From a virus: 36,094 nt of DNA. The notes below the pieces were generated by a model. It was not told the DNA's origin, made no database searches, and saw nothing but the letters and a program-made list of their open reading frames with translations. The position numbers were made by a program, and so were the translations under genes. Positions within the stretch are counted from its first letter, which is position 1, and every line of letters starts with the position of its first letter. Below are positions 10,748-25,253 of this stretch, one piece after another. The DNA is taken from IMG/VR virus record IMGVR_UViG_3300043431_000103, positions 1-36,094 of that record. One strand, written 5' to 3'.

Positions 10748-11173
10748 GTGTCTAAACTAACGTCTAAACAACAAAAATTTGCCGATTTTATCGCGCAAGG
10801 TTACGACCAAAAAACGGCGTACGCTATGGCGTACGATGTAAAAAGCGAAAGCGATAAAGGCAATCGGTCTAATGCTTCTAAGATAGCTAATAATCCAAAA
10901 ATCATCGAAGCGATTGCTGAATATAGGCAACCGATTATTCAACAGATAGGAATCACGCTAGAATCGCATCTTCAAACTTTGAGCGATATAGCTCGCGAAG
11001 CGCGGGAAGCTGGGCAATATAGCGCGGCGGTTGCGGCGGAGGTGGCAAGAGCTAAGGCGGCTGGAATACATATAGATAGGTCAGAGCAGACTATAAAAGG
11101 CATGATTGGTCACATAACTGTGCCACCTGACCAACTAAAAGACGTAGCCGCGCGGTTATTATCAAAGGTTTAA
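10748..11173 (+). CDS. Terminase small subunit
   Basis: 141 residues with a GTG start. LTSKQQKFADFIAQGYDQKTAYAMAY is the N-terminal HTH of Terminase_2-type small subunits (LT.KQ..F...Y...G...A...AY), and the rest is the helical oligomerisation part (SKIANNPKIIEAIAEYR, YSAAVAAEVARAKAAGI). It recognises the packaging start site on the concatemer and delivers DNA to the large subunit encoded next. The start has only a weak ribosome binding site. Functional assignment is firm from motif and position. Confidence 0.85.
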   Translation: MSKLTSKQQKFADFIAQGYDQKTAYAMAYDVKSESDKGNRSNASKIANNPKIIEAIAEYRQPIIQQIGITLESHLQTLSDIAREAREAGQYSAAVAAEVARAKAAGIHIDRSEQTIKGMIGHITVPPDQLKDVAARLLSKV

Positions 11174-11458: not shown

Positions 11459-13885
11459 ATGAGCAGTCTTTCTTTCGACCACAACGAAGTTGCGCTTGCG
11501 CGGGAATTTAGTCGGCAAAATTTCTATTTCTTCACGCGCTGGATGTTCCATGCCACGACCAATATCCCGTGGGACAAAGGTGGTCATCACGAAGTCATGG
11601 CAAAAGCACTAGAGCGAGTAGTAAGTGGCGATTGTAAAAGGCTGATTATTAACATTCCGCCCCGTTATGGAAAAACCCAAATGGCGGTTGTATCGTTTAT
11701 CGCATGGTGCATGGGTAGGTATCCTGATTCTGAATTTATTCATACGTCTTATTCGTCCACATTAGCGGGTGAAAACTCGTATAAGGTGCGTGAATGGGTT
11801 ACTCATGCTGAATATCAGGCGATATTTCCTGATGTGGTGTTGAAGTCTGATTCAAAGTCAAAAGACCATTGGAAAACAACCTCTGGTGGGGTTTTATATT
11901 CTGCGGGTACGGGTGGTACGTTGACTGGATACGGTGCTGGTAAAAAGCGTAAAGAGTTTGGCGGGTGTTTTCCGTATGAGCAGTTGGTTGAAACCGAGAT
12001 TGGTGCAATAAGGATTGGTGAGATTGTCGATAAGGAATTAAATGTAAAGGTCTGGTCGTACAATGAAGAAACCCAACAATGTGAATTGCGAGAAATCACC
12101 ACCTACTTCGAGAACCCTGCTAATGAAATTCTCGAAGTGATGATGGATGATGGTACAAGTTTTAGATGTACACCGAACCATAAGATTTTGACATCATCCG
12201 GTTGGATTACTGCGGAACAGCTTGCGGATATACTTAATCTGGAAAATAGAAAGTCCAGTTTCATCCATAACCTGTTGTCTGGTTTTGGTAGGATCAATCG
12301 CTATGTTGATAGTTTCTTGAGAGTGCTTAGGTTTGGAATTCCAAACTGGATCAGGCAGACTTTCAGTTATGCTTCGCCAAGTTTCGCGGAGCTTGATTTG
12401 GCGTATAACGCCAGCGCCAATACCGTACCGTTTAGCCAAGTCAGTAGTACTCTCACTGCTCGTAAAGATTTCTACGACTTTGGCTTTAGTCAATTTAGCA
12501 CCGGGACGTTTTTCGAGCAAAGGGAAAGTGCCGTGTCTAATGGCATCTTGCATATTTTCGGATTTGGTTCCCCACGCAAGATTGTCAAGTCTATTATTGG
12601 TGGAATTACCATCAAGATGCCGAGCTTCGTTCTTTTCGGGTCTAGCGCCAACAAATTCTTCCAAAACCATGTGATGAATATATTTAAGCGTCACTTTCCC
12701 ATTAATAGACAAATTAACTCGAAAATACCCTTTACCATCATCACTGGGCTTCAAAAAACGCTCTGGAGAAGTTCTTTTAACTCTACCAAAGCTGGAAATA
12801 GCGTAAAGTTCATTGGTGTTGGCAATAAAACGCCAGTTTTCGTTCGTCATGTTGGTCATGTTGATACTACCTTTTGTTTAGAAGTTGAGACTAATCATAA
12901 CTTTATTTTATCACAAAGCGGAGCAATTGTTTCAAACTGTATCATAATTGATGATCCCCATAAGGCTGACGAAGCTAGGTCTGACATTATCAGGAATTCA
13001 GTTCTGGAGTGGTTTAGGACTACGTTGGAATCGCGTAAGAATAACGGGTCTGATACGCCAATTATTGTGATTATGCAAAGGTTACATGAGCAGGATTTAG
13101 CAGGATGGTTGCTTGATGGTGGTAATGGTGAGTCGTGGGAGCATATTAATCTGTCAGCGATACAACCTGATGGCTCGGCATTGTGGCCTTCTACGCACAC
13201 GCTGGAAGAACTACGGATTATTGAGAACTCGAATCCGTATGTGTTTGCAGGACAGTATCTACAGCGCCCTGCCCCACCGGAAGGGGGGTTGTTTAAGCCT
13301 GAGAACCTAAAGGTAATTGATGCGTTACCTGCTGAGAAAATACAGTGGGTGCGAGCATGGGACTTGGCTTCATCAATTAAGGGTGACTGGACGGTCGGTG
13401 CAAAGCTAGGCAGACTGCCTGATGGTAGATTAATTATTGGTGATATTGTCCGCATACGGGTTGAGGCGCATGAACGGGATAAGGTGATGATTAATGTGGC
13501 GACACAAGATGGCTATAATGTGACTGTGTCGATACCACAAGACCCAGGTCAAGCAGGTAAAACACAGGTAGCGTACTTAACGAAAGCGTTACAAGGGTTT
13601 AAGGTGAAGTCGAGTCTGGAGTCTGGGGATAAGTACACAAGGGCTGAACCGTTCGCTTCGCAAGTCAATATTGGGAATGTGATGATGAGTCGTGGTGCGT
13701 GGAACCAGAATTTGATACATGAAATGTCCATGTTCCCGAATGGTAAGAATGATGACCAGATCGATGCGCTGTCTAGGGCATTTGCTGAGATTATCGGAAT
13801 GAATAAAAGGATGAGTATTAGTAAAAGTGCTTTGAATAAAGCAAAAAGGTATAATTACGCGCAACATGGCACGAGGTTTGCATAA
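11459..13885 (+). CDS. Terminase large subunit, interrupted by an intein
   Basis: The precursor is 808 residues: N-extein 1-169, intein 170-493, C-extein 494-808, giving a 484-residue spliced motor of normal length. The ATPase has Walker A PPRYGKT (67-73, Lys72). Walker B is CIIIDDP (494-500), beginning with Cys+1 of the C-extein. The coupling motif is MQRLHEQDLAG. The C-terminal RNase H-like nuclease has VRAWDLASS, SIPQDPGQAGKTQ and NDDQIDALSRAF. The exteins join as EFGG-CIIIDDPHKADEA, a seamless fit to uninterrupted relatives. The protein cuts concatemers and pumps DNA into the prohead. Without splicing the ATPase site is split, so activity depends on the intein. Confidence 0.95.
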   Translation: MSSLSFDHNEVALAREFSRQNFYFFTRWMFHATTNIPWDKGGHHEVMAKALERVVSGDCKRLIINIPPRYGKTQMAVVSFIAWCMGRYPDSEFIHTSYSSTLAGENSYKVREWVTHAEYQAIFPDVVLKSDSKSKDHWKTTSGGVLYSAGTGGTLTGYGAGKKRKEFGGCFPYEQLVETEIGAIRIGEIVDKELNVKVWSYNEETQQCELREITTYFENPANEILEVMMDDGTSFRCTPNHKILTSSGWITAEQLADILNLENRKSSFIHNLLSGFGRINRYVDSFLRVLRFGIPNWIRQTFSYASPSFAELDLAYNASANTVPFSQVSSTLTARKDFYDFGFSQFSTGTFFEQRESAVSNGILHIFGFGSPRKIVKSIIGGITIKMPSFVLFGSSANKFFQNHVMNIFKRHFPINRQINSKIPFTIITGLQKTLWRSSFNSTKAGNSVKFIGVGNKTPVFVRHVGHVDTTFCLEVETNHNFILSQSGAIVSNCIIIDDPHKADEARSDIIRNSVLEWFRTTLESRKNNGSDTPIIVIMQRLHEQDLAGWLLDGGNGESWEHINLSAIQPDGSALWPSTHTLEELRIIENSNPYVFAGQYLQRPAPPEGGLFKPENLKVIDALPAEKIQWVRAWDLASSIKGDWTVGAKLGRLPDGRLIIGDIVRIRVEAHERDKVMINVATQDGYNVTVSIPQDPGQAGKTQVAYLTKALQGFKVKSSLESGDKYTRAEPFASQVNIGNVMMSRGAWNQNLIHEMSMFPNGKNDDQIDALSRAFAEIIGMNKRMSISKSALNKAKRYNYAQHGTRFA
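12194..12859 (-). CDS. NUMOD4/HNH homing endonuclease encoded antisense inside the intein
   Basis: 221 residues. The NUMOD4 start is ENWRFIANTNELYAISSFGR (7-26). The HNH_3 domain has IHHMVLEEF (His62-63), RHLDGNSTNNRLDNLAWGT (His81, the Asn cluster and the N.L.W.T signature) and SENMQDAIRHG. A C-terminal HTH follows: AKLTKAKVVEIF...TTDLAKRYGIGAGVIRQIKL. This is the standard architecture of phage homing endonucleases. Start ATG 12859 has AAAGGTAG upstream; ATG 12850 is an alternative. All 16 Leu codons avoid TTA/CTA and all 16 Ser codons avoid TCA, as needed to keep the terminase frame open on the other strand. It presumably cuts intein-less terminase genes, spreading the intein. Confidence 0.9.
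   Translation of the reverse strand: MTNMTNENWRFIANTNELYAISSFGRVKRTSPERFLKPSDDGKGYFRVNLSINGKVTLKYIHHMVLEEFVGARPEKNEARHLDGNSTNNRLDNLAWGTKSENMQDAIRHGTFPLLEKRPGAKLTKAKVVEIFTSSESTTDLAKRYGIGAGVIRQIKLRETWRSITESLPDPVWNSKPKHSQETINIAIDPTKTRQQVMDETGLSIFQIKYIRKLFRSNPTG
12907..12935 (-). promoter_or_regulatory. Antisense promoter candidate for the HNH gene, inside the intein
   Basis: Minus strand: TTGAAA (12935-12930), 17 bp, GATAAA (12912-12907). Start would be near 12900, about 40 bases ahead of the HNH ATG. The entire promoter lies within the coding sequence for the intein's C-terminal block, so it would move with the element. Confidence 0.4.
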
Positions 13886-15384
13886 TGAGTACACCAGAAA
13901 CAGAACAATCCAAAAGAATACGAAAGGCAGCGGTCTATAAGGCGCAAGAGAAGCAAGGCCCTACTAATGCGTTTTTTCCACCTGAATTACCTGCTGGTGT
14001 TGTCCCCAAAGGGCGTACTGCGGCAATTGCGATGGACGATGCCATGTATAGCTATTCTTTTGTGAATAATGCAATGGTGGCTGATGCTCAAGGCTTCCCT
14101 GGCTATGCAAGACTGGCACAATTGATGACTAGAGCGGAATATCGGCAGTTTGCAGCGACATTGTCGACTGAGCTAACTCGTGAATGGATTACGTTTGATT
14201 CAACACAAGATAATGGTGATGAGTCGAATGGACGTATTGTTGAGTTAAGACGCGAGTTTGAACGGTTAAAGATTCGCAATGTGTTCCAATTGGCGGCATC
14301 GCAGGAATGTTTTTTTGGTAGAGCGCAGTTCTTTATCAATATTAAGGATGCAGACCGCTCAAGACCGCTGATTTTGTCACCAAAGACCATCAAACAAGGT
14401 TCATTGGAAAGCATTACAGCCGTTGAAGCCATGTGGACTTCACCGAGCGCGTATAACGCGATTGATCCTGCTGCACCAGACTTCTACAAACCAACAACAT
14501 GGTTTATGTTGGGACAAGAGGTTCATGCGTCACGATTGTTGACCGTAGTGACTCGTCCTGTACCGGATATGCTCAAGCCGTCTTATAACTTTAGCGGTAT
14601 GTCGTTGTCACAGTTGGCAGAACCTTATGTCAATAACTGGCTTAGAACAAGACAGTCTGTCGCTGACTTGGTGAATAACTTTAGTATTACCGCCTTGGCT
14701 ACCAGCATGGATCAAGTGCTGAATGGCGATAGTGATGGTAGTGATATTTTCGATCGAGCCGACTTGTTTACTGCGACACGTTCAAATCGCGGCATGATGT
14801 TGTTAGATAAAGAACGTGAAGAACTGTTGCAGGTGAACACACCATTGTCTGGCTTGCATGAACTACAAGCACAAGCGCAAGAACATATGTGTGCGGTGTC
14901 GCGCATACCTGCGGTGATCTTGACAGGTATTTCTCCAAGCGGTCTTAATGCGACTAGCGAAGGTGAAGTCAGAGCATGGTATGACTGGGTAGCCGCTCAA
15001 CAAGAAGCGTATTGGCGTAATCCATTAGAGATTATTACCAAAATCGTCATGCTACACTTATGGGGTGAGATAGATGAGTCTATCGTGATTAAGTTCAAAC
15101 CCTTATGGCAAATGTCTACCGATGAAGAAGCGAACATTCGTATTAAAAATGCTCAGGCTGATTCTATTTATGTGGATCGTGGAATTCTCGACCCAACTGA
15201 AATTCGTCAACGATTGGCGCAAGATCCAGACTCAGGCTATAAGGGCTTGGAGGTAGATGAGGTGCATCCACCAGCAGAACAACCTGATGCGTTTGCTGAA
15301 TTCGACAACGATGAAGATAAACCTAAGCCAATAAGACCTAATGACGAAAACCTTAAAGACCCTGCGACCTATCCACTCCAATAA
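13885..15384 (+). CDS. Portal protein, DUF1073 family
   Basis: 499 residues. The conserved N-terminus has MDDAMYSYSFVNNAMVADAQGFPGYARLAQLMTRAEYR in order, then RVELRREFERLKIRNVFQLA-like helical parts, PAVILTGISPSGLNATSEGE and YDWVAAQQEAYWRNPLEII. The dodecameric portal forms the DNA channel at the head vertex and docks the terminase. The start overlaps the terminase stop by one base. Databases sometimes label this family after the anti-CBASS protein Acb1; the genomic place right after terminase and the length leave little doubt about the portal role. The acidic C-terminal tail (FAEFDNDEDKPKPIRPND) is normal. Confidence 0.9.
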   Translation: MSTPETEQSKRIRKAAVYKAQEKQGPTNAFFPPELPAGVVPKGRTAAIAMDDAMYSYSFVNNAMVADAQGFPGYARLAQLMTRAEYRQFAATLSTELTREWITFDSTQDNGDESNGRIVELRREFERLKIRNVFQLAASQECFFGRAQFFINIKDADRSRPLILSPKTIKQGSLESITAVEAMWTSPSAYNAIDPAAPDFYKPTTWFMLGQEVHASRLLTVVTRPVPDMLKPSYNFSGMSLSQLAEPYVNNWLRTRQSVADLVNNFSITALATSMDQVLNGDSDGSDIFDRADLFTATRSNRGMMLLDKEREELLQVNTPLSGLHELQAQAQEHMCAVSRIPAVILTGISPSGLNATSEGEVRAWYDWVAAQQEAYWRNPLEIITKIVMLHLWGEIDESIVIKFKPLWQMSTDEEANIRIKNAQADSIYVDRGILDPTEIRQRLAQDPDSGYKGLEVDEVHPPAEQPDAFAEFDNDEDKPKPIRPNDENLKDPATYPLQ

Positions 15385-16108
15385 AGGGGTGGAAGCCAAG
15401 TACAGGAAAAAGTTGGACAGGCTTGTACAGGACATGAGCGCCAGCACTATTTACTGGCTTTCTGCTCAGTACAAGCAATCCCCTCCCCTGATGGCTTCCG
15501 ATGCAAGCCCTGTTGAGGGTGCTAAAAAGCGCCTGAAAAAACTGAAAGCATATTGGTTGCTGAAGTTTTCCGATGCTTATGCAATATGGTTTGTTGAGTC
15601 GGCTTTCAAAGCATCGAATAATGCGTTCAATAACGCATTGGCTGAAGAAGGTATTGCAGTTCAAAAGCAATGGACACCTGCAATGAAGGATGCGTTAAAA
15701 GCATCCGTTGCTGAGAATGTGGCGCTGATTAAATCAATACCTGAGCAATACTTTAAGAATATTGAAGGTATTGTGATGCGTAATTACATCAAAGGTGGCG
15801 ATTTAAAGAGCATGGCTGATGAAATACAGGCGCAATACCCTGTTACAAGGCGCAGAGCAGCGTTTATTGCACGAGATCAGAACAATAAGGCTAATGCCGC
15901 AGTTAATCAAACCCGAAGCCTAGAGATGGGTTTTGAGGACGCGATATGGCTACATAGCCATGGTGGAAAAGAACCAAGACCGGATCATGTAGCAGCGGAC
16001 GGCAAACGATATAAGATAAAAGAAGGCTGTTTAATTTCCGGTGAGTATATCCAACCTGGTGAACTCATCAACTGCCGATGTGTGTCCCGTGTTGTATTAC
16101 CTTTTTGA
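15341..16108 (+). CDS. Phage head morphogenesis protein, Mu gpF-like
   Basis: 255 residues, overlapping the portal end by 44 bases. The C-terminal Mu-F domain is visible: ARDQNNKANAAVNQTRSLEMG, then WLHSHGGKEPRPDHVAADG, and finally LISGEYIQPGELINCRCVSRVVLPF with the hallmark P.....NCRC. The N-terminal two-thirds is helical and lysine-rich. These proteins are minor head components needed for early head assembly, packed or attached near the portal. The ribosome binding site is weak; coupling with the portal is likely. Confidence 0.88.
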   Translation: MTKTLKTLRPIHSNKGVEAKYRKKLDRLVQDMSASTIYWLSAQYKQSPPLMASDASPVEGAKKRLKKLKAYWLLKFSDAYAIWFVESAFKASNNAFNNALAEEGIAVQKQWTPAMKDALKASVAENVALIKSIPEQYFKNIEGIVMRNYIKGGDLKSMADEIQAQYPVTRRRAAFIARDQNNKANAAVNQTRSLEMGFEDAIWLHSHGGKEPRPDHVAADGKRYKIKEGCLISGEYIQPGELINCRCVSRVVLPF

Positions 16109-16119
16109 GATGTTATAAT
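16092..16119 (+). promoter_or_regulatory. Candidate promoter for capsid genes
   Basis: TTGTAT (16092-16097), 16 bp, TATAAT (16114-16119), preceded by TGT (extended -10). It lies within a near-palindrome GTTATAATATAAC, about 20 bases before the ATG at 16139. It could boost capsid expression over the rest of the late operon. Confidence 0.45.
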
Positions 16120-16138
16120 ATAACTAAGTGCAATTAAT

Positions 16139-17488
16139 ATGCCAATTATGAAAAATATCGAACTTGCTTTTGATAGAACTGCTAGGCGCTATGATGCCGA
16201 TGGCAGACTGCACGTTGACCGTACACACATTAGTAAAGCTACGGTGAATCCTTATTATGGTGAGGAGATACCAAATTGGGCAAATTTGGGTCTTGTTGCC
16301 GATAAAATTTATCAACTTTTCAGACCACCTGAAGAGCTTGAGAAAGCCGCCCCCACCTTTAATCGTTTACCGATCCTTTCACGCCATGTTCCCGTTACCG
16401 TTGACGCTCCACAACCACACCTAATTGTTGGCGCTATCGGTTCAGATGTTGAATTCAATGCTCCTTACCTAGATGCCTCCATCACCATCTGGGACGCAAC
16501 TTCGATTGCAGGTATTGAAGAAGACATCCAACGGGAACTATCCTGCGCCTACCGTTATGTTGCGGTAATGGAAGCTGGTGAATATGAAGGTAAACCGTAT
16601 GACGGCTTTATGACGAACATTCAAGGCAACCATCTGGCTATCGTAGAAGTTGGACGAGCAGGTCACGATGTCATTGTCGCGGATGCAAACCCTTTCCATC
16701 AACAAAAGGAAAACACTCTAATGAGAAAGACCAAGCTAGGTAAGGCGTTAATCGCTGCACTTGAGGTCGCATCGCCAAAGTTGGCGGCTGATTCAGCCTT
16801 ACCAGCGTTGGTGGGTGATGCAGATCGCAAGACTTTCGATGTTGAGGCTGTTAAATCCAAGCTATTGGCTATGGATGAAAATATGACTCCCCAACAAGTT
16901 GACAACATTATTGATGCTGTTTTGGGCGTTGAACAAAATCCTGAACCTGTTGAATTAGGTGAAGGCGATAGTGAAAGCGACAAAAAACAATCATTGCCTG
17001 ACTACTTGAGAGTCAAAGGCTTAGATGAAGATTCAATCAATGAAGCTATGGGTTTGATCGCAAAAGACGCTGATTGCAGCGACACTGTGGCTCAAGACTC
17101 TGACATCGAAACTGAAGAAACAACTGAAGAAGTAGCTGAAGAAGTTATTGAAGAAGCGGTTTCTGAAGATGTTAATAGTACCATTGAAGCGGCTATGGAT
17201 TCATTCCGTAAGGAATTGAGATTGCAGTACCGCAACCTAGATCAAGCGAAACAAGAAGTCCGTAAAACAGTTGGCGAAGTATTCGGCATGGATACTGCTG
17301 AGGAAGTTTATGGTTTCGCGCTTGATCAAATGAGTGTTGAGCATGAAGGTGTAAAAGACCTTGTTGCTTTACGCGCATTGTATAAAGTAGCCGCTGAGGG
17401 CGTTTCAGTATCTAAGCCAAACGTGGCTCAAGATTCTGCTGACGCAGTTAAGCAATTCCCAGGCTTGGCAAGAATTCGCCAGCTTTAA
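16139..17488 (+). CDS. DUF2213 protein: probable prohead protease fused to scaffold
   Basis: 449 residues in two parts. Residues 1-185 are the DUF2213 domain (RRYDADGRLHVDRTHISKATVNPYYGEEIPNW, LPILSRHVPVT, PHLIVGAIGSDVEFN, RELSCAYRY, MTNIQGNHLAIVEVGRAG). Residues 195-449 are highly charged, acidic and coiled (DIETEETTEEVAEEVIEEAV, then a QAKQEVRKTVGEV helix). That is the arrangement of a capsid maturation protease followed by scaffold. It stands directly before the cement and capsid genes. The protease active site is inferred from family position; I cannot point to the catalytic residues with certainty. Confidence 0.8.
   Translation: MPIMKNIELAFDRTARRYDADGRLHVDRTHISKATVNPYYGEEIPNWANLGLVADKIYQLFRPPEELEKAAPTFNRLPILSRHVPVTVDAPQPHLIVGAIGSDVEFNAPYLDASITIWDATSIAGIEEDIQRELSCAYRYVAVMEAGEYEGKPYDGFMTNIQGNHLAIVEVGRAGHDVIVADANPFHQQKENTLMRKTKLGKALIAALEVASPKLAADSALPALVGDADRKTFDVEAVKSKLLAMDENMTPQQVDNIIDAVLGVEQNPEPVELGEGDSESDKKQSLPDYLRVKGLDEDSINEAMGLIAKDADCSDTVAQDSDIETEETTEEVAEEVIEEAVSEDVNSTIEAAMDSFRKELRLQYRNLDQAKQEVRKTVGEVFGMDTAEEVYGFALDQMSVEHEGVKDLVALRALYKVAAEGVSVSKPNVAQDSADAVKQFPGLARIRQL
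16721..17488 (+). CDS. Possible nested scaffold protein from internal start
   Basis: The in-frame ATG 16721 (residue 195 of the larger protein; MRKTKLGKALIAALEVASPK) is preceded by AAAAGGA ten bases upstream. The start falls exactly at the junction between the DUF2213 domain and the scaffold-like coil, giving a 255-residue product. Nested scaffolds of this kind occur in lambda C/Nu3 and many protease-scaffold genes. Evidence is positional; expression is inferred. Confidence 0.5.
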   Translation: MRKTKLGKALIAALEVASPKLAADSALPALVGDADRKTFDVEAVKSKLLAMDENMTPQQVDNIIDAVLGVEQNPEPVELGEGDSESDKKQSLPDYLRVKGLDEDSINEAMGLIAKDADCSDTVAQDSDIETEETTEEVAEEVIEEAVSEDVNSTIEAAMDSFRKELRLQYRNLDQAKQEVRKTVGEVFGMDTAEEVYGFALDQMSVEHEGVKDLVALRALYKVAAEGVSVSKPNVAQDSADAVKQFPGLARIRQL

Positions 17489-17504
17489 TTAGGAGATAAT
17501 TTAG

Positions 17505-17984
17505 ATGTCTTTTCAAAATTCTGTAAATATCTACAACCCATTAGCGGTCAATGGTGATTTTGCTTCTGCAAATCCTCGCGCTTCTTTTGTTGGTGTTGAA
17601 GGTGGTTATGTTGCTGGTACAGGCGGTGTAACTGTTGGTCGTTTCGTTTGGATTCAATCTGACGGTGTAACTGTATTAAACACAGGTACAGGCGCTCCAG
17701 ATGGTTTCGTACACCGTGAACAACAAGCTTTGATTACCACTTATTTGGCTGATTCTGGCAACGTAGTACCTGCTGGCTTCCCTATCACTATCATGCGTAC
17801 TGGCGATTATTACGCTACTGCAACTGTTGGTGGTGCGACTAAAGGTCAAAAAGCGTTTGCTAAATTGGCTGACGGTACAGTTCAAGCTGCTAATGCGGGT
17901 GCAACTGTTTCTGGTTTCGTGGAAACTAGCTTCGTTGTTGAACGCACAGTTAGCGTTGGCGAATTAACAGTTATCACTTTCTAA
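17505..17984 (+). CDS. Head decoration / structural cement protein
   Basis: 159 residues, beta-rich and Gly/Ala/Thr/Val-rich with no cysteines: PLAVNGDFASANPRASFVGVEGGYVAG, TVGRFVWIQSDGVTVLNTG, QALITTYL, GYYATATVGGATKGQKAFAKLADGTVQAA, and so on. This is the plan of Gp24-like cement proteins that precede the capsid gene and stabilise expanded capsids. AGGAG lies before the start. Codon use shifts here toward very regular codons, as in highly expressed genes. Confidence 0.8.
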   Translation: MSFQNSVNIYNPLAVNGDFASANPRASFVGVEGGYVAGTGGVTVGRFVWIQSDGVTVLNTGTGAPDGFVHREQQALITTYLADSGNVVPAGFPITIMRTGDYYATATVGGATKGQKAFAKLADGTVQAANAGATVSGFVETSFVVERTVSVGELTVITF

Positions 17985-17996
17985 GGGGTTTTAATA

Positions 17997-19022
17997 ATGA
18001 CTGATTTAAACGTATTAGCCAGAGATGCGGGTATTCACTTTCCGCAAGGCACTCAATTAAAGAGCGTTGCTGACGTATTGGCAATGGACGCTCAAACACC
18101 ATTAGTTACTACTAGCAACAGCGGTATTCCAGCGTTCTTGTCTACTTTCGTTGATCCAAAAATCATTGACGTATTAGTATCGCCAATGAAAGCGGCTATC
18201 ATCGTTGGTGACGAAGTGAAAAAAGGCGATTGGACTACTGAAACAGCAATGTTCCCAGTAATCGAAGCAACTGGTGAAACTGCTGCTTATGGCGATTACG
18301 CTGCAAGCGGTGTAGCTGGCGCAAACAGCAACTTCCCACAACGTCAATCTTTCCATTATCAAGTGTTGACCCAATGGGGCGAACGTGAATTGGAAAAAGC
18401 TGGCTTGGCTCGTATTGACTGGGCTTCTCGCTTGAACTTGGCTTCTGTTTTGACTTTGAACAAATTCCAAAACAAAACCTATTTCTTCGGTGTAGCTGGT
18501 TTGCAAAACTACGGTTTGTTGAACGATCCTGCTTTATCTACAGCGATTGCTCCAACAACTGAAGCTGGTCAAACCACATGGTTCGACAACTCAGGCAACC
18601 CAACAAAAGATGCTTTAGGTGTTATTGCTGACATCCAAAAGTTGTATCGTAAATTGCAAACTCAAGCTAATGGCTTGGTTCAATTAGATACTCCAATGAC
18701 TTTGGCTATGTCACCTAAGTCTCAAGTAGCTTTGACTTTCACCACTCAATACAATGTTAATGTCGAAGATATCTTGAAAAAGAATTTCCCTAACATGAAA
18801 GTTGAAACAGCGCCTGAATATAGCACTGTGTCTGGTGAGCTGGTACAATTGATTGCCGATGAAATCGAAGGTCAACGTACAGCGTCTTGCGCTTTCACTG
18901 AAAAATTAAGAGCGCACCCAATTAAAGTTGAGTTATCTTCTTTCCAACAAAAGAAATCTCAAGGTACTTGGGGTACTGTGATTTTCCGTCCGTTCTTGAT
19001 CGCTCAAATGATCGGTGTTTAA
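17997..19022 (+). CDS. Major capsid protein (DUF2184-like, HK97 fold)
   Basis: 341 residues. Conserved stretches: TPLVTTSNSGIPAFLSTFVDPKIIDVLVSPMKAAIIVGDE, WTTETAMFPVIEATGETAAYGDYA, NFPQRQSFHYQVLTQWGERELEKAG, and the C-terminal AHPIKVELSSFQQKKSQGTWGTVIFRPFLIAQMIGV. This pattern and length match capsid proteins of myophages with DUF1073 portals. AAGGGG precedes the start and the gene follows cement directly. The early N-terminal part (1-35) may be removed or act as a delta-like segment. Confidence 0.9.
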   Translation: MTDLNVLARDAGIHFPQGTQLKSVADVLAMDAQTPLVTTSNSGIPAFLSTFVDPKIIDVLVSPMKAAIIVGDEVKKGDWTTETAMFPVIEATGETAAYGDYAASGVAGANSNFPQRQSFHYQVLTQWGERELEKAGLARIDWASRLNLASVLTLNKFQNKTYFFGVAGLQNYGLLNDPALSTAIAPTTEAGQTTWFDNSGNPTKDALGVIADIQKLYRKLQTQANGLVQLDTPMTLAMSPKSQVALTFTTQYNVNVEDILKKNFPNMKVETAPEYSTVSGELVQLIADEIEGQRTASCAFTEKLRAHPIKVELSSFQQKKSQGTWGTVIFRPFLIAQMIGV

Positions 19023-19047
19023 TCAATAGTATAATTAGGAGAAGAAA

Positions 19048-19365
19048 ATGGCAGGTTCAGTTGTTGTAGGATGCAGGCTTCCACATGGGTTATTACTCCA
19101 AGTGGATGCAGTCGAAATCGAGTTGAAAGGCGCTAATCGCTCAGAAATCATTGGCGGTGATTGTGGTTATACCACCGTTGATGCTGATGTATGGGCTAAA
19201 TGGGTAGAGCTGTATAAAGACTTTGCTCCATTGAAAAACGGTGCTTTATTCGCGGTAAAAGACGAAGCTGGCGCGAAAGCAAAAGCTAAGGAAGTTGCCA
19301 AAGAAAAAACTGGATTCGAGGGTGCATCGCAAAACGAATCTGGCGTTTCTTCTGCTAACGCATAA
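19048..19365 (+). CDS. Hypothetical head protein, 105 aa
   Basis: MAGSVVVGCRLPHGLLLQVD starts a small beta-rich domain. It is followed by VDADVWAKWVELYKDFAPLKNGALFAV and a lysine/alanine-rich tail (DEAGAKAKAKEVAKEKTGF). The VDA.VW..W...Y.....L..G.LFA pattern recurs in small genes behind capsid genes. AGGAG sits seven bases before the start. Function unknown; a head-completion or vertex role is suggested by place only. Confidence 0.7.
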   Translation: MAGSVVVGCRLPHGLLLQVDAVEIELKGANRSEIIGGDCGYTTVDADVWAKWVELYKDFAPLKNGALFAVKDEAGAKAKAKEVAKEKTGFEGASQNESGVSSANA

Positions 19366-19374
19366 GGTGTTGAT

Positions 19375-19785
19375 GTGGCTGTAGTTACGTTTGATCCAAA
19401 AGGTTTCAAAACAAGATACCCTGAATTTGACGGTATTGAGAATTCACGCTTGACGTTATGTTTTAATGACGCAGGCTTGTATTTGAATAACACCGACAAC
19501 AGCCCTGTATCAAACGTAGCTCGCCGCACTTCATTGTTGTGGATGCTAACCGCTCATATTGCTTTTCTGGGCGGTTACATTGACTGCGGCAATAATGGAC
19601 AGCCTAAGCCAGTAGGTCGAGTTTCTAGCGCCTCTGAAGGCTCTGTTAGTGCTGATTTAGACTATATGCAAGCCACACCAGGCTCAGGCGCATGGTTTAA
19701 CCAAACTCAATATGGCGCTGCTTTTTGGCAGGCCACTACCAGTCTTCGCGGATTTAGATACCGCGCAAGACCAACTATGTACTGA
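19375..19785 (+). CDS. Head-tail connector, DUF4054-like
   Basis: 136 residues with GTG start after AAGG. FDPKGFKTRYPEFDGIENSRLTLCFNDAGLYLNN matches the F...YPEF......L......A......N pattern of DUF4054 and related helical adaptors. WMLTAHIAFLGG and the tail GSGAWFNQTQYGAAFWQAT follow. Such adaptors bind the portal from below and prepare the vertex for tail joining. The capsid-to-tail position agrees. Confidence 0.8.
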   Translation: MAVVTFDPKGFKTRYPEFDGIENSRLTLCFNDAGLYLNNTDNSPVSNVARRTSLLWMLTAHIAFLGGYIDCGNNGQPKPVGRVSSASEGSVSADLDYMQATPGSGAWFNQTQYGAAFWQATTSLRGFRYRARPTMY

Positions 19786-20234
19786 TGGCAATAGCAAATT
19801 CACTCGATGGCGCAGCCAAAAGACTCGAACTAAGGCTACAGCAGTTAGCAAGTGGGATGTCTGGCTCAGTTGAAGTTGGATTTGAAAAAGGCGCTACTTA
19901 TGATGATGGTATGCCAGTTGCACAAGTGGCTTTTTGGAATGAGTACGGTACTCGAAAAATTCCAGCCAGACCTTTTTTTAGGACAATGCTGGCAAAACAA
20001 GCCAATACATTGCCGAAAAGTCTTGCTAAATATCTAAAAGAAACAGGTTTTCAAGGCGAGAAAACGCTGAATATCATTGGGCAAAAGTTACAAGACGAAT
20101 TGGTAGTCAGTATTCGTAATTGGACGACTCCACCTAATGCGCCCTATACAATTAACAAAAAAGGTTTTAATAAGCCTTTGGTTGATACAGCACACATGAT
20201 GAGATCGGTCAGTTTTAAGGTGAGCAATGATTAA
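19785..20234 (+). CDS. Neck / tail completion protein, HK97 gp10-like
   Basis: 149 residues. VEVGFEKGATYDDGMPVAQVAFWNEYGTRKIPARPFFRTML is the hallmark (VGF......Y.....VA..A..NE.GT..IPARPF.R). The C-terminus has TTPPNAPYTINKKGFNKPLVDTAHMM (PN...T...KG....L.DT..M). These proteins complete the tail or neck so the connector can accept the tail tube. The start overlaps the previous stop by one base. Confidence 0.85.
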   Translation: MAIANSLDGAAKRLELRLQQLASGMSGSVEVGFEKGATYDDGMPVAQVAFWNEYGTRKIPARPFFRTMLAKQANTLPKSLAKYLKETGFQGEKTLNIIGQKLQDELVVSIRNWTTPPNAPYTINKKGFNKPLVDTAHMMRSVSFKVSND

Positions 20235-20598
20235 TGTCAGAGGTTTAGCCAACAATATTGCTAATGTCATCAACGACAATTGCCCTGTTACGATTTTAAG
20301 ATCCGATGGATATACCATTGGTGACGGCAGAAAACAAATCCCAAAGTATGAATATCCTATTTCTGGCAACGCACAAGTACAAGCTTTAGATCATGCCGAT
20401 TTAAAACAGCTTCAAGGCTTGAACATGGAAGGTGTTTATCGAGCCATTTACTTATGCGGATCACTTCACGGTGTTATTAGAAAAACCGGAGAAGGCGGAG
20501 ATTTGGTAAAATATAACAATCAAACTTGGTTAATTACCAAGATTCTTGAAACATGGCCTACATGGACTAAGGCTGTCATCTGTCTACAGGTTGATTAA
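20227..20598 (+). CDS. Head-closure (stopper-like) protein
   Basis: 123 residues overlapping the previous gene by eight bases. Pattern: VTILRSDGYTIGDGRKQIPKYEYPISGNAQVQALDHADLKQLQGLNMEGVYRAIYLCG, then WLITKILETWPTWTKAVICLQ. The beta-rich form with VQ.L...D...L.GLN..G.YRAIYL.G is shared by small neck genes of myophages with DUF3383 sheaths. Assignment as stopper comes mainly from position. Confidence 0.65.
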   Translation: MINVRGLANNIANVINDNCPVTILRSDGYTIGDGRKQIPKYEYPISGNAQVQALDHADLKQLQGLNMEGVYRAIYLCGSLHGVIRKTGEGGDLVKYNNQTWLITKILETWPTWTKAVICLQVD

Positions 20599-20600
20599 AT

Positions 20601-20936
20601 ATGAGCAACAATACTGTTTTGAATCCTGGGTTTGGTGGTGACACTATATCCACAGAAGATTTGGGCGCAAGCAAAATACAAAGAGTAAAGATTGCATTAG
20701 GCACATCAGGCGTTGATGGCGGCAATATTAGCGGCTCTAATCCATTGCCTATCACCAATGGGCCTATTATTGGCGGCAATCAAATTAATATCAATGCGGC
20801 TACCAATCAATCTTGGAACTGGACTGGCGGAGTGTTGCAAAATATTCAATACACAATCGGTGCTAATGTTTATCAAAAAACCTTTACTTACACATCAGGA
20901 AACTTAACCAATATCACTTGGAGCCAAATTGCATGA
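20601..20936 (+). CDS. Hypothetical virion protein, 111 aa
   Basis: Pattern SNNTVLNPGFGGDTISTEDLGASKIQRVKIALGTSGVDGGNISGSNPLPI in the first half (D.I.T.D.G..KIQRVK...G..G......PLP), often found in phage structural proteins that sit at fibre bases. The second half is repetitive and Asn/Thr-rich. It overlaps the fibre gene as ATGA, so this protein may be a partner or mount for the fibre encoded next. Role uncertain. Confidence 0.6.
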   Translation: MSNNTVLNPGFGGDTISTEDLGASKIQRVKIALGTSGVDGGNISGSNPLPITNGPIIGGNQININAATNQSWNWTGGVLQNIQYTIGANVYQKTFTYTSGNLTNITWSQIA

Positions 20937-23173
20937 GTAATATTGAAAGCTGGTGGGAAGGTTATCAGGTATTTAAAGGACAAGTATCAACAGGCGGAAC
21001 ATCTGGATACTCTGGATATTCAGGTCAAAGCGGTTTTTCAGGTTACTCTGGATTTTCTGGTAGTGGTATTTCAGGCTATTCTGGGGAAAGCGGCTATTCC
21101 GGTGCTAATGGTGTTTCTGGCATCTCAGGTTTTTCAGGCTACTCTGGGAGTGGTATTTCAGGTTACTCTGGAAGATCTGGTTTTTCAGGCGCTAATGGCG
21201 TTTCAGGTACTTCAGGTTATTCTGGATATTCAGGAAGTGGTATCTCAGGGTACTCTGGATTTTCAGGATATTCAGGCGCTGTTGGCGCAAGCATTGCTAT
21301 TAAAGGCACTGTGGCTACAGTGGCTAATTTACCATCAAGCGGTAATTTAAAAAATGATGCCTATGTTGTAACTGCTGATAGTCATTTATATGTTTGGACT
21401 GGATCGGCATGGAGTGATGCTGGACAATTTACAGGCACTTCAGGTTTTTCAGGTTTTTCTGGTTTTAGCGGATACTCTGGAAAATCTGGTTTTTCTGGAT
21501 ATTCTGGGATCAATGGTACGAATGGTGCATCAGGATTTTCTGGTGCTGCCGGTGCTTCTGGTTTTTCTGGGTATTCAGGTATTAATGGCTTGTCTGGCGT
21601 ATCAGGATTTTCTGGTCAAGTAGGTGGATCAGGTATCTCTGGTTATTCTGGCTTTTCTGGGTATTCAGGATCAGGGGTTTCAGGATACTCTGGAAAATCT
21701 GGTTTTTCTGGTATTTCAGGTTTTTCTGGGTATTCAGGCGCTTCCGCAAGCAGTTTATTTGTCAGTATTAAAGATTTTGGAGCGGTAGGTAATGGAACCA
21801 CAAATGATACTACTGCAATACAAAACGCCTTAAACAGCTTAGGTACAGCAGGTGGTTCAGTTTATGTGCCTAATAACTACAGATGCTTGGTCAGCGGTAG
21901 CTTAACTATCCCTAAAAATGTGTCTCTAGTTGGGCCACATTTATCGCCAGGCATGGCTGATTATTCGCCAACATCATTTAATACAATGGGTGGTGCAATA
22001 TTATTAAGCTCAGCAGCCACAATTAACTTGAGTGGATCATCGGCTATCTCTGGATTGTTGATTTATCGTGCTGGAATGACATTTCCTATTTCAAATACTT
22101 CAGGTTATGCAGGCACGGCTATTACAGGCAGTTACTCCGACTGTACGTTTGTGGAAAATTGCATCATCATTGGTTTTAATCAAGCTTGTCGAATCAGCAA
22201 TTCTGAACAATTACGATTCAACAATCTCTGGCTAGACAACATTAATGGCATTGAAATTTCTGGCGCACCTGATGTTTGTTATATCTCAAACTGTCATGCT
22301 TGGCCTTTTGCAAGTAGAGGAGGAACCGACAATGGCACAAGATCAGGCACTGCTTTTTATTACCATGATGTTGCAGATTGGATAAAAACAACCAATTGTT
22401 TTTCTTATGGATATGCACATGGATTTGAAATTAATAACGTCAATAGCGCACAGTTTATTGGATGCGGAGCAGATAACTTATACACTACTGCGCCTGGATT
22501 ACCAGGATCAATAGGATTTAACGTACTTGGCACATCTACAGGTACTGTGTTCTCTAATTGCCAAGCTGCCGCCCAAGATTATGCGGGGTTTCATTTTTCA
22601 GCATCTTCTGTATTTAATGAAGTCGTAGGGTGTAGTGCATGGGGGAATTATTCTGCAATTATTGTTAATCAAGGCAATGTCGATATTAACAGTTGTCTGT
22701 TTAATGGTAATGGATTAGCTAATAGCAGAGGCATAGCAATAGGCAATGCTGCTTCAATTGTTAATGTTGATAATTGCAACTCAAATGACATGGTATTGGC
22801 TGATATTGAAGCTTCCGTATCAACAACATTGTTAAGTGTTGCCAATACCAACTCATTAAGATCGTCTGTTCCCGTTTTGTATAACGGAAATCTTAATGCG
22901 CGTTCAATTGCTTCAGCTTCTACTATTACCATTCCTACGTCTGTTTTGGTTTGCAATGTAACAGGCACAACAACAATAAATAACGTATTGAATGGTTGGG
23001 CTGGGCGGCAAATTACATTAATTTTTAATGGAGCATTAACTGTTGTTAATAGCGCAACTGCAAATACAGGTGTTCGATTAAAAGGCAGTACAAACTTTTC
23101 GGTCAGTGCAGGAGTTAGTTTAACTCTAGTCCACAATGGTACACAATGGTTTGAAATAGGCAGAAACGCATAA
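20933..23173 (+). CDS. Collagen-like fibre / tailspike with beta-helix domain
   Basis: 746 residues; the start at 20933 (MSNIESWWEGYQ) overlaps the previous stop. Domains: an anchor (1-22); a first collagen-like block of G-Y/F/I-S triplets (about 23-118); a small domain (about 120-168: GTVATVANLPSSGNLKNDAY, LYVWTGSAWSD) like those in fibre proteins; a second triplet block (about 169-274); and a pectate-lyase-like right-handed beta helix (from about 278, KDFGAVGNGTTNDTTAIQNALN...GGSVYVPNN) that runs to about residue 660. The C-terminal part ends NTGVRLKGSTNFSVSAGVSLTLVHNGTQWFEIG. It likely recognises or cuts surface polysaccharide. The gene lies between connector and tail terminator genes, an unusual place. 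Confidence 0.85.
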   Translation: MSNIESWWEGYQVFKGQVSTGGTSGYSGYSGQSGFSGYSGFSGSGISGYSGESGYSGANGVSGISGFSGYSGSGISGYSGRSGFSGANGVSGTSGYSGYSGSGISGYSGFSGYSGAVGASIAIKGTVATVANLPSSGNLKNDAYVVTADSHLYVWTGSAWSDAGQFTGTSGFSGFSGFSGYSGKSGFSGYSGINGTNGASGFSGAAGASGFSGYSGINGLSGVSGFSGQVGGSGISGYSGFSGYSGSGVSGYSGKSGFSGISGFSGYSGASASSLFVSIKDFGAVGNGTTNDTTAIQNALNSLGTAGGSVYVPNNYRCLVSGSLTIPKNVSLVGPHLSPGMADYSPTSFNTMGGAILLSSAATINLSGSSAISGLLIYRAGMTFPISNTSGYAGTAITGSYSDCTFVENCIIIGFNQACRISNSEQLRFNNLWLDNINGIEISGAPDVCYISNCHAWPFASRGGTDNGTRSGTAFYYHDVADWIKTTNCFSYGYAHGFEINNVNSAQFIGCGADNLYTTAPGLPGSIGFNVLGTSTGTVFSNCQAAAQDYAGFHFSASSVFNEVVGCSAWGNYSAIIVNQGNVDINSCLFNGNGLANSRGIAIGNAASIVNVDNCNSNDMVLADIEASVSTTLLSVANTNSLRSSVPVLYNGNLNARSIASASTITIPTSVLVCNVTGTTTINNVLNGWAGRQITLIFNGALTVVNSATANTGVRLKGSTNFSVSAGVSLTLVHNGTQWFEIGRNA
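20998..21752 (+). repeat. Degenerate 9-bp Gly-X-Ser triplet repeat region (two blocks)
   Basis: Blocks about 20998-21285 and 21436-21752, made of GGA/GGT-TA(or TT)-T/C-TCN-type codons for G-(Y/F/I/V)-S, interspersed with GAN/GKS triplets. Alternative frames are open by periodicity alone. Similar repeats recur at 34218-34695 and 35185-35415. Confidence 0.85.
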
Positions 23174-23682
23174 TGACATTATTTGTCCCGTCAATCAGTG
23201 TCGATCAAGTCATAGATGCACTAGGTGACTATGTGCAGTTGTTTACAACCGCTAAGATTGTTCGCGGTAACGTAAATAGAACTGCAATGCCATCAAGTGC
23301 ATTTATCGAGTTGACTGAAATAGCATCCGTTTCGCTCAATAAGCCAATCGAAATCTATGGCGAATCAACTGGAACATTAAATGAGCATACACGCATTGAT
23401 GTTCAGATTGATTTTTATGGATGGGAATTAAGTGAAGTAGCTAAGGCGGTTCATGCCTCATTCAGAACAATATGGGCGGTGGATAGATTCCCGTCAAACA
23501 TAGCGCCATTGTATTGCAGTGATTTACTGAAGATGCCTATCATTAATGCCGAGCAACAGCATGAACAAAGATGGACAATGACAGCTTCAATGCAATACAA
23601 CCCTGATGTAGTAGTTCCACAAGACAGCTTTGATACGCCAGGTGATATTGGCGTTATTCCTGCTGATGTATTCTATAGTTAG
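23173..23682 (+). CDS. Tail/neck terminator protein (gp12-like, LIC_12616 type)
   Basis: 169 residues. Elements: QVIDALGDYVQLFTTAKIVRGNVNRTAMPSSAFIELTEI, GTLNEHTRIDVQIDFYGWELSEVAKAVHASFRT, AEQQHEQRWTMTASMQYNPDVVVPQDSFDT. The pattern R.N....P...F..LT....... Q.DFYG......A......R is the phage neck terminator gp12-like family. It caps the tail tube and sheath before head joining. The start overlaps the fibre gene stop by one base. A distinct sheath gene follows after a 44-bp gap. Confidence 0.85.
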   Translation: MTLFVPSISVDQVIDALGDYVQLFTTAKIVRGNVNRTAMPSSAFIELTEIASVSLNKPIEIYGESTGTLNEHTRIDVQIDFYGWELSEVAKAVHASFRTIWAVDRFPSNIAPLYCSDLLKMPIINAEQQHEQRWTMTASMQYNPDVVVPQDSFDTPGDIGVIPADVFYS

Positions 23683-23726
23683 TAAAAATGGTAAAATAAC
23701 GCAACTTTTTATTTAAAGGCAATAAC

Positions 23727-25253
23727 ATGACAGCATCGATCCCTATTTCAAAAGAAGTTACCGTCATTCCTGGTGTTGTCGGAACAGGTGGTAACCCTCT
23801 TTCTTTAAACAGCATTTTCTTTACACAAAATGATATTGCGCCAGCAGAAGCACTTTTGAGCTATTCAAATGCTACTGATGTTGGTGATTATTTTGGCACT
23901 ACTTCAGCCGAATACGCAGCAGCAGTTTGTTATTTTGCAGGTTTTGAAAACGCATCAGCACTACCTGGCACGTTGTACTTTTATGGGTACAAAAATGCCG
24001 ATTCCCCTGCTTGGCTTAGAGGTCTTTCATTAGCAGGTCAGCCATTAAGCTATTACCAAGCTTTAACGGGTTCATTAAGCATTGTTGTAACAGGTGTTAC
24101 CTATACAGCAGCGTCATTGAACTTGTCTGGCGCAACCAGCATTGGCGGAGCTGAAGGCACTTCTGTTGTCAATAAAATCAAAACTGGTTTAGGTTTTTCA
24201 GGTGCAGGCGCTCCAACGATTGCTTGGGATTCCGTTAGAAGCCAATTTGTTATCACTTCTGGCACATTGGGTAGTAGTGCAAACATTGCTTTTGCAACAG
24301 GCACTTTAGCTGATCCATTGGCATTATCCGCTGGCATTTTGTCGCAGGGTGTCAATGCGTCAACACCAACAACAGAAATGGATTCTGCAATCAATTTATC
24401 GACTGATTGGGCTACATTTACAACATTGTGGGAACCAACCAATAGCGATGCCATTGAATTTGCACAATGGACTCAAGCGCAAAATGACCGTTATGCGTTT
24501 ATTGCATGGGATTCTGATGCTGGTAACAAAGTTGCTAACAATTCGGCTACTATTGGTGCTTTGATTGCTGCCGATGAGTTTGATGGCACATTGGTTGTTT
24601 ATGCTGCAACTGGTGGTCAATACTTAGCTGCCGCAGTTGCTGGTTATGCTGCTGCAATTAATTGGAAAGCATTAAATGGCAGAGCAACACTGAAATTTAG
24701 ACAACAAGCTGGCTTGTCTAGCTATGTGTCAGTTGTCAATAATGTTGCCGATGCCAATGCAATTTTAAGCAACAATGCTACTTACTTTGGTACTTATGCT
24801 GCACCAGGTATTGGCAATGCTTACAATATCTTTGCCGATGGCGCGATGAATGGCAGTCGTTTCAAATGGTTTGATACTTATATCGGTCAAATCTATTTGA
24901 ACAGCCAATTAGCACTAGCCATCTTTGAAGGTTTGCTGCAAGTCAATATGGCTCCTTATAATGAGTTAGGTTATAACCTAATCAGACAATGGTGCGCTGA
25001 TCCAATTACTGAAGCCTTAAATTGCGGCATTATTAGATCTGGTGTTTCGTTAAGCAACAGCCAAAAATCAGCTATTAACTATACCGTTGGCAAAGACATT
25101 TCAGTGCCTTTGCAAACTCAAGGTTATTTCTTAAATATTGCTGATGCTGATGCTCAAACCAGAGGTCAACGTAAAAGCCCACCAGTTAAGTTGTACTACA
25201 TGGATGGCGGTGCTATTCAACAAATTACCCTTAATTCAATCGTGGTTCTGTAA
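23727..25253 (+). CDS. Tail sheath protein (DUF3383 family)
   Basis: 508 residues. Conserved parts: VTVIPGVVGTGGNPLSLNSIFFTQN at the start; DVGDYFGTTSAEYAAAVCYFAGFENAS (D...YFG..S.EY..A..YF.G..N), LPGTLYFYGY; ALNGRATLKFRQQAG; NAYNIFADGAMNGSRFKWFDTYIGQIYLN (Y...Y..G.......F.D...G..YL); and the end GQRKSPPVKLYYMDGGAIQQITLNSIVVL. This family forms the contractile sheath. AAAGGC precedes the start. It proves the phage is a myophage. Confidence 0.9.
   Translation: MTASIPISKEVTVIPGVVGTGGNPLSLNSIFFTQNDIAPAEALLSYSNATDVGDYFGTTSAEYAAAVCYFAGFENASALPGTLYFYGYKNADSPAWLRGLSLAGQPLSYYQALTGSLSIVVTGVTYTAASLNLSGATSIGGAEGTSVVNKIKTGLGFSGAGAPTIAWDSVRSQFVITSGTLGSSANIAFATGTLADPLALSAGILSQGVNASTPTTEMDSAINLSTDWATFTTLWEPTNSDAIEFAQWTQAQNDRYAFIAWDSDAGNKVANNSATIGALIAADEFDGTLVVYAATGGQYLAAAVAGYAAAINWKALNGRATLKFRQQAGLSSYVSVVNNVADANAILSNNATYFGTYAAPGIGNAYNIFADGAMNGSRFKWFDTYIGQIYLNSQLALAIFEGLLQVNMAPYNELGYNLIRQWCADPITEALNCGIIRSGVSLSNSQKSAINYTVGKDISVPLQTQGYFLNIADADAQTRGQRKSPPVKLYYMDGGAIQQITLNSIVVL

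Follow-up and report, generated by a model that had tools for sequence, protein, structure and literature searches.

We have identified, in the large terminase (TerL) gene of a viral genome, what is very probably a mobile intein in which one strand encodes the splicing function and the other, over the same stretch of DNA, the endonuclease. The window analyzed is the whole of this stretch, positions 1 to 36,094 of IMG/VR virus record IMGVR_UViG_3300043431_000103. Both genes are observed directly, as are their conservation, the lock between their reading frames, the handover of selection from one strand to the other, the recurrence of the layout at other loci and the stages of its decay. The window is a myovirus-like phage genome, with genes for the terminase small subunit, portal, head morphogenesis protein, protease, major head protein and contractile tail sheath found at 10748-11173 and 13885-25253.

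Organization of the terminase intein and the antisense HNH gene

The TerL gene is a continuous open reading frame of 808 amino acids (11459-13885, plus strand) that contains an in-frame intein at 11966-12937. The features of the locus are as follows.

11459-11965, plus strand: TerL N-extein, ending in KEFGG (phrog_4758 TerL, 1.6e-71)
11966-12193, plus strand: N-terminal splicing part of the intein, blocks A-B, with Cys1 and with TPNH at 12170-12181 (TIGR01445, 2e-10)
12197-12856, plus strand: intein linker in the sense reading, stop-free, no recognised domain, predicted to be disordered (AlphaFold2 (AF2), identity comparison)
12857-12937, plus strand: C-terminal splicing part of the intein, blocks F-G, GHVDTTFCLEVETNHNF...VSN (TIGR01443, 0.0034; intein alignments)
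12938-13885, plus strand: TerL C-extein, starting with Cys+1-IIIDDPHKA, the Walker B motif (Terminase_6C, 1.2e-11; TIGR01630, 1.4e-22; phrog_38, 4e-100)
12194-12859, minus strand: NUMOD4/HNH homing endonuclease gene, 221 amino acids (HNH_3, 5.5e-12; NUMOD4, 2.3e-10; phrog_59 HNH endonuclease, 4.8e-45)
12707-12841, minus strand: NUMOD4 motif of the antisense HNH, residues 7-51 (domain search)
12548-12685, minus strand: HNH_3 nuclease motif RHLDGN..NNRLDNLAWGT, residues 59-104 (domain search)
12869-12873, minus strand: AAGGT resembling a Shine-Dalgarno site, roughly 10 nt before the HNH start codon (sequence match)
12894-12899, minus strand: TATGAT, a candidate -10 element that lies 40 nt ahead of the HNH start codon and opposite the codons for Asn-His in block G

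The intein matched the N-terminal and C-terminal splicing profiles listed above and also PF14890 (E value 7.8e-12). The junction between N-extein and intein was placed by alignment with the TerL proteins of Escherichia phage BUCT618 and of an intein-free Bordetella phage, the latter reading FGG-AIIIDDPHK; the insertion is thus in frame, at a conserved TerL motif, and is missing from the Bordetella phage homologue. In an alignment of 13 inteins, Cys1, C68-T69 and H72 of blocks A and B and the C-terminal Asn (N324) were invariant, and Cys+1 was found in the complete members listed. When the window intein was modelled with AF2, the splicing blocks were predicted with pLDDT values of 73-90 (residues 1-90), while linker residues 92-277 fell below 50, and Foldseek matched the modelled splicing blocks to the NpuDnaE and RecA inteins (E about 1e-6). 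The model therefore meets the expectation of a Hint fold for the splicing domain and predicts that the linker, some 190 residues in the sense reading, is disordered. By every sequence feature tested the element is a class 1 (Cys1) intein, its splicing activity being inferred.

The antisense gene has the NUMOD4 and HNH_3 motifs with catalytic His and Asn that are required of an I-HmuI-family HNH endonuclease. H81, N89 and N93 were invariant in an HNH alignment and aligned with I-HmuI; the window HNH is 58-64% identical in amino acids to the HNHs of loci L002, L008, L009 and L023. Its AF2 model (pLDDT 82.6) had I-HmuI (1u3e) as the closest fold (1.6e-7), and a profile search also matched I-HmuI (5e-22). 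These data indicate that the window HNH is an I-HmuI-type homing endonuclease, with site-specific cleavage inferred from the family. It carries additional C-terminal HTH motifs beyond those of I-HmuI. In the HNHs of L095, L097, L098, L100 and L105 this C-terminal HTH repeat region is doubled (two profile matches, positions 128-179), so the DNA-binding tail varies in repeat number.

A first-pass annotation of the window had claimed intact splicing blocks (Cys1, TPNH, NHNF, terminal Asn and Cys+1), a slot between them without any sense-strand endonuclease, and a complete NUMOD4/HNH gene antisense to the intein linker. All five splicing elements were found, a domain search of the sense frame detected no endonuclease in a linker that is predicted to be disordered, and domain matches confirmed the 221-amino-acid gene at 12194-12859 on the minus strand. 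The further claims that the two genes are codon-in-register and that the overlap is free of stops on both strands were also borne out, as described in the next section.

Codon register and stop avoidance

The intein and HNH reading frames share a codon register, positions 12857 and 11459 both being 2 mod 3. On the minus strand, the HNH begins with an ATG that pairs with CAT at 12857-12859, the His codon of the GHVD motif that immediately precedes block F of the intein; the HNH stop codon falls just past intein block B. Because the registers coincide, a TTA, CTA or TCA codon would stop the gene on the opposite strand: the HNH if it stood in the sense frame, the intein if it stood in the HNH frame. 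Of the three frames antisense to the HNH, the in-register one contains no stops, the other two 4 and 23. None of the 32 Leu/Ser codons of the window HNH is TTA, CTA or TCA, although 12.2 would be predicted from the codon usage of the same phage (log10P -6.7). The three codons are likewise missing from all 626 Leu/Ser codons in 19 intact antisense HNHs, and for 12 of these genes approximately 98 would have been expected. Most of 24 free-standing HNH homologues carry one or more such codons, up to 15. The probabilities of stop avoidance are not independent, since the sequences are related. A chance antisense ORF is ruled out by the lack of in-register stops and of forbidden codons and by the recurrence of the layout in about 31 other loci. 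A synonymous-recoding test of sense-linker composition was nearly circular because it used each gene's own codon counts, and it consequently gives little information on any additional constraint upon the linker.

Selection within the overlap

To determine on which strand selection acts, codon-position variability was compared among members at 58-68% HNH identity. Outside the overlap, variability at sense positions 1, 2 and 3 was 0.24-0.47, 0.22-0.33 and 0.59-0.69, respectively; most variation in the splicing blocks thus lies at position 3, as in ordinary coding sequence. Inside the overlap the values were 0.50-0.70, 0.18-0.27 and 0.30-0.39, the variable position being sense position 1, which is position 3 of the HNH. 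Two close pairs, L024/L025 and L010/L012, showed the same flip. The sense linkers were only 23-43% identical, compared to 58-68% for the HNH. The flip in periodicity and the low linker identity indicate that the HNH protein is conserved inside the overlap and the intein protein outside it. On the evidence of these sequence comparisons, selection acts through the sense strand on the splicing blocks and through the antisense strand on the overlap. The sense linker is merely kept open, in frame and without stops; AlphaFold agrees with this, in that the linker is predicted to be disordered and the HNH to fold.

Candidate expression signals of the HNH gene

Shine-Dalgarno-like sequences precede the HNH start in most relatives, with AGGAGG or AAGGAG in L010, L011, L012 and L022. 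On the HNH strand, TATGAT occurs at a fixed position of -40 in many members, and L010, L011, L012 and L052 have TTGAC(T/A/C)-17-TATGAT, which includes a consensus-like -35 element. The window has the -10 match without a good -35 element, and a simple promoter scan of the window found nothing. Consensus matching alone suggests that the HNH is served by a ribosome site of its own, and that many members also have a promoter-like site within the C-terminal splicing block.

Recurrence of the layout

The same antisense layout was found at about 31 further distinct loci, or about 32 with the window. The carriers are the cultured Escherichia phage BUCT618, found by tblastn, IMG/VR contigs and one Clostridia MAG; approximately 30 of the loci beyond BUCT618 came from scans of IMG/VR and GTDB contigs. 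The IMG/VR contigs are metagenomic, and a single phage represents the cultured carriers. All of the antisense-HNH inteins are found in TerL, at the Walker B motif and codon-in-register, with HNH identity among divergent members falling to about 30%. An intein frame without stops over the HNH was also found in a second set of loci. A check was also made with stops masked, so that broken copies would be revealed as well. The N and C blocks of the intein lay in one frame around every antisense HNH except at L016/L113, and this was also the sole exception among loci with both intein ends to an intein frame open across the HNH. L016/L113 (IMGVR_UViG_3300028294_000197), a close relative of L008, has a frameshift in the N block of its intein, at the edge of its 4.8-kb contig; it is ambiguous whether this represents an assembly error or a broken intein copy.

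The insertion point shifts by 0-3 codons among lineages (GG^CIIIDD, GGC^CLVDD, GML^CIDD and GAII^CDD), so the exact target may differ, but G-xxxx-DD is always restored after the inferred splicing, whichever point is used. L100 (2411-6163, plus strand) encodes a TerL with two inteins, an antisense-HNH intein at Walker B and a LAGLIDADG_3 intein at the P-loop; the latter is classical and apparently starts with Pro (PPG^PMRHDSV).

Detection of relatives depended on the search. An IMG/VR scan with a single intein sequence returned no relative, alignments being needed to find them, and a first scan of GTDB contigs returned no member, the second yielding the one Clostridia MAG. Plasmids gave only weaker HNH relatives and no full-length intein relative, no BUCT618-like allele was found in E. 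coli genomes, and among about 50,700 phage records the layout occurred in BUCT618 only.

The first-pass annotation had called for a search for related terminases with the same layout, and these were found in both close and very divergent TerLs. It had also named two results that would refute its reading. One, an in-frame LAGLIDADG or HNH domain in homologues at the Walker B site, was not encountered. The other, a broken HNH with the intein kept, was seen twice (L026 and L103), compared to about 32 intact HNHs. The antisense-HNH layout is confirmed as real, conserved and recurrent among TerL inteins, and these outcomes support the reading given by the first-pass annotation, its biochemical side being inferred.

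Stages of decay and possible mobility

At L026 the HNH contains one internal stop, and at L103 its N-terminal half is deleted and the C-terminal part kept; both retain an open intein frame, the pattern expected if an endonuclease decays in the course of a homing cycle. L114 has a TerL mini-intein at Walker B without an endonuclease, and the nearest intein-free TerL, that of Bordetella phage IFTN8, provides the empty site. Intact, stop-containing, half-deleted, mini-intein and empty-site forms are the stages expected of a homing cycle, and the full series is available for testing that model. Roughly 20 codons upstream of Walker B is the site of another endonuclease-less TerL mini-intein, at L107 (3276-5264, plus strand; SITG^CFDYD...VSN^CDAGLP), which apparently marks a neighbouring insertion site.

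Distances among HNHs, intein blocks and exteins correlate (Mantel 0.69, 0.82 and 0.43), the values for the HNH being 0.69 against the intein blocks and 0.82 against the exteins. HNHs can be about 60% identical where the exteins are 44-47% identical, a hint, not a proof, of lateral movement drawn from sequence identity. Recent mobility is only suggested, because the HNH and extein trees are broadly congruent.

Proposed mechanism and alternative explanations

We propose that, on the sense strand, TerL would be translated with its intein as one precursor, from which the Hint domain formed by the N and C blocks would excise itself and the linker, joining the exteins and restoring Walker B (GG-CIIIDD). 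On the antisense strand, a separate message would yield the I-HmuI-family NUMOD4-HNH endonuclease, whose expected target is the conserved Walker B coding sequence, or DNA close to it, in TerL genes that lack the intein; repair would then copy the whole intein, antisense gene included, into the cut TerL. Within the overlap the HNH protein would be under selection, and the sense linker would need only an open frame. Splicing, HNH expression, cleavage at the TerL site and homing are all inferences: splicing from the intact motifs and from the fact that TerL is essential and BUCT618 was cultured with this allele, cleavage and homing from the endonuclease family. We consider it likely that these elements form a widespread class of mobile inteins dual-coded with an HNH, frame-locked over large TerL divergence and with the endonuclease promoter in a splicing block, and that, together with the +1-frame DUF559 inteins at L119, L129 and L236 described below, they would reflect repeated acquisition of out-of-frame endonucleases by inteins.

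A potential concern is that the HNH is a mere passenger, a free-standing phage gene inserted backwards once into a mini-intein, and not a homing enzyme. NUMOD4-HNH genes are indeed common and free-standing in phages, and endonuclease-less TerL mini-inteins exist both at the Walker B site (L114) and at the neighbouring site (L107). A passenger would, however, have been lost or had its frame broken far more frequently than is seen, whereas about 32 loci in very divergent TerLs retain the same pairing, Walker B site, register and bounds, and the HNHs have diverged in step with the intein blocks (Mantel 0.69) and the exteins (Mantel 0.82). We regard this explanation as improbable.

Still harder to sustain is a split intein with a free endonuclease gene between its halves and a sense ORF that is continuous only by accident. 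The endonuclease is a separate gene located between the N and C splicing blocks, as such an intein would have it, but the sense ORF runs through the HNH in the window and in every complete member, and the total lack of forbidden codons (0/626) is a constraint that split inteins would not need. The least credible possibility is that the HNH ORF is a dead remnant or fortuitous and that the intein alone matters. The stop at L026 and the deletion at L103 are what a remnant would look like, but strong purifying selection on the HNH frame in the overlap already contradicts it, and the catalytic motif and fold are conserved, with ribosome sites before the HNH. A mobile intein with its two functions on opposite strands remains the explanation that we favor.

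Comparison with known systems

The usual understanding of an intein is a single polypeptide that both splices and carries an endonuclease domain; split and mini forms are seen as derived from it. The window element shares with the classical bifunctional inteins a Hint domain, the splicing blocks, an endonuclease between blocks B and F, and a site of insertion in an essential gene, at a conserved motif. In those inteins, one of which was seen in RecD2 of L115, the endonuclease is a LAGLIDADG or HNH domain of the intein protein itself, read in the sense frame and placed between blocks B and F; the window does not meet this definition, its endonuclease being a separate opposite-strand gene and its linker an open spacer. 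Antisense endonuclease genes exist in group I introns. I-HmuI (PDB 1u3e), a homing endonuclease of the NUMOD4/HNH kind from a group I intron of a phage, is the closest solved relative of the window HNH by profile and fold, but the window HNH is in an intein, is antisense, has the extra C-terminal HTH and must avoid TTA, CTA and TCA. Among split inteins, those of the 'fractured genes' reportedly described by Dassa et al. in 2009 also have the endonuclease as a free gene of its own, located between the splicing halves. They differ in that the window intein is one continuous ORF with the HNH fully overlapped on the other strand; N and C halves on separate ORFs were not found in the window or in the complete members.

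The ShiLan element, described in 2025, has a sense-strand, third-frame HNH inside an uninterrupted methylase ORF, which has no ribosome site and for which the authors found no intein motifs and no self-splicing (PMC11855218). The likeness is that a host ORF runs on uninterrupted, with an in-frame reading predicted to be disordered, over a homing endonuclease concealed in a different frame (PMC11855218). The window element differs as a recognisable intein with an antisense HNH, and so is not of the ShiLan type, defined by a sense-strand out-of-frame HNH without splicing motifs (PMC11855218). No description of an antisense endonuclease in an intein was found in the open-access full text searched; a preprint on actinobacteriophage inteins of 'non-canonical architecture' (doi 10.1101/2025.01.02.630785) is a possible precedent outside that scope. 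Within the searched open-access literature, an antisense-endonuclease mobile intein is apparently undescribed, the ShiLan HNH being the nearest case found. With about 32 distinct virus loci sharing the double-coded arrangement, we take the layout to be real as well as apparently undescribed.

When the endonuclease of an intein has its own antisense gene, kept open by the reading frame of the intein, the view of how intein mobility can be acquired changes. The arrangement also bears on regulation, since the HNH has its own ribosome site and a candidate promoter that opposes TerL transcription, and on annotation; in the cultured phage BUCT618 only TerL was annotated. As a natural example of antisense dual coding the locus is unusually clean, with selection that can be read directly from the flip in codon-position variability.

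Other overlapping intein and endonuclease genes

Antisense ORFs were also noted in L114, L115, L116 and L119; no domain was found in them and they were rejected as chance. A different arrangement was observed in two SNF2 helicase inteins, at L129 (4182-5027, plus strand) and L119 (4185-4781, plus strand), and in an intein of a clamp-loader-like gene at L236 (2959-3738, plus strand). In each, a zinc-finger/DUF559 (Vsr-like) endonuclease is read from the +1 sense frame, with PF04480 matches of 2e-11 for L129 and 2.8e-12 for L119, and the linker has an uninterrupted intein reading without a recognised domain. These +1-frame DUF559 inteins are a second kind of overlapping intein-endonuclease coding.
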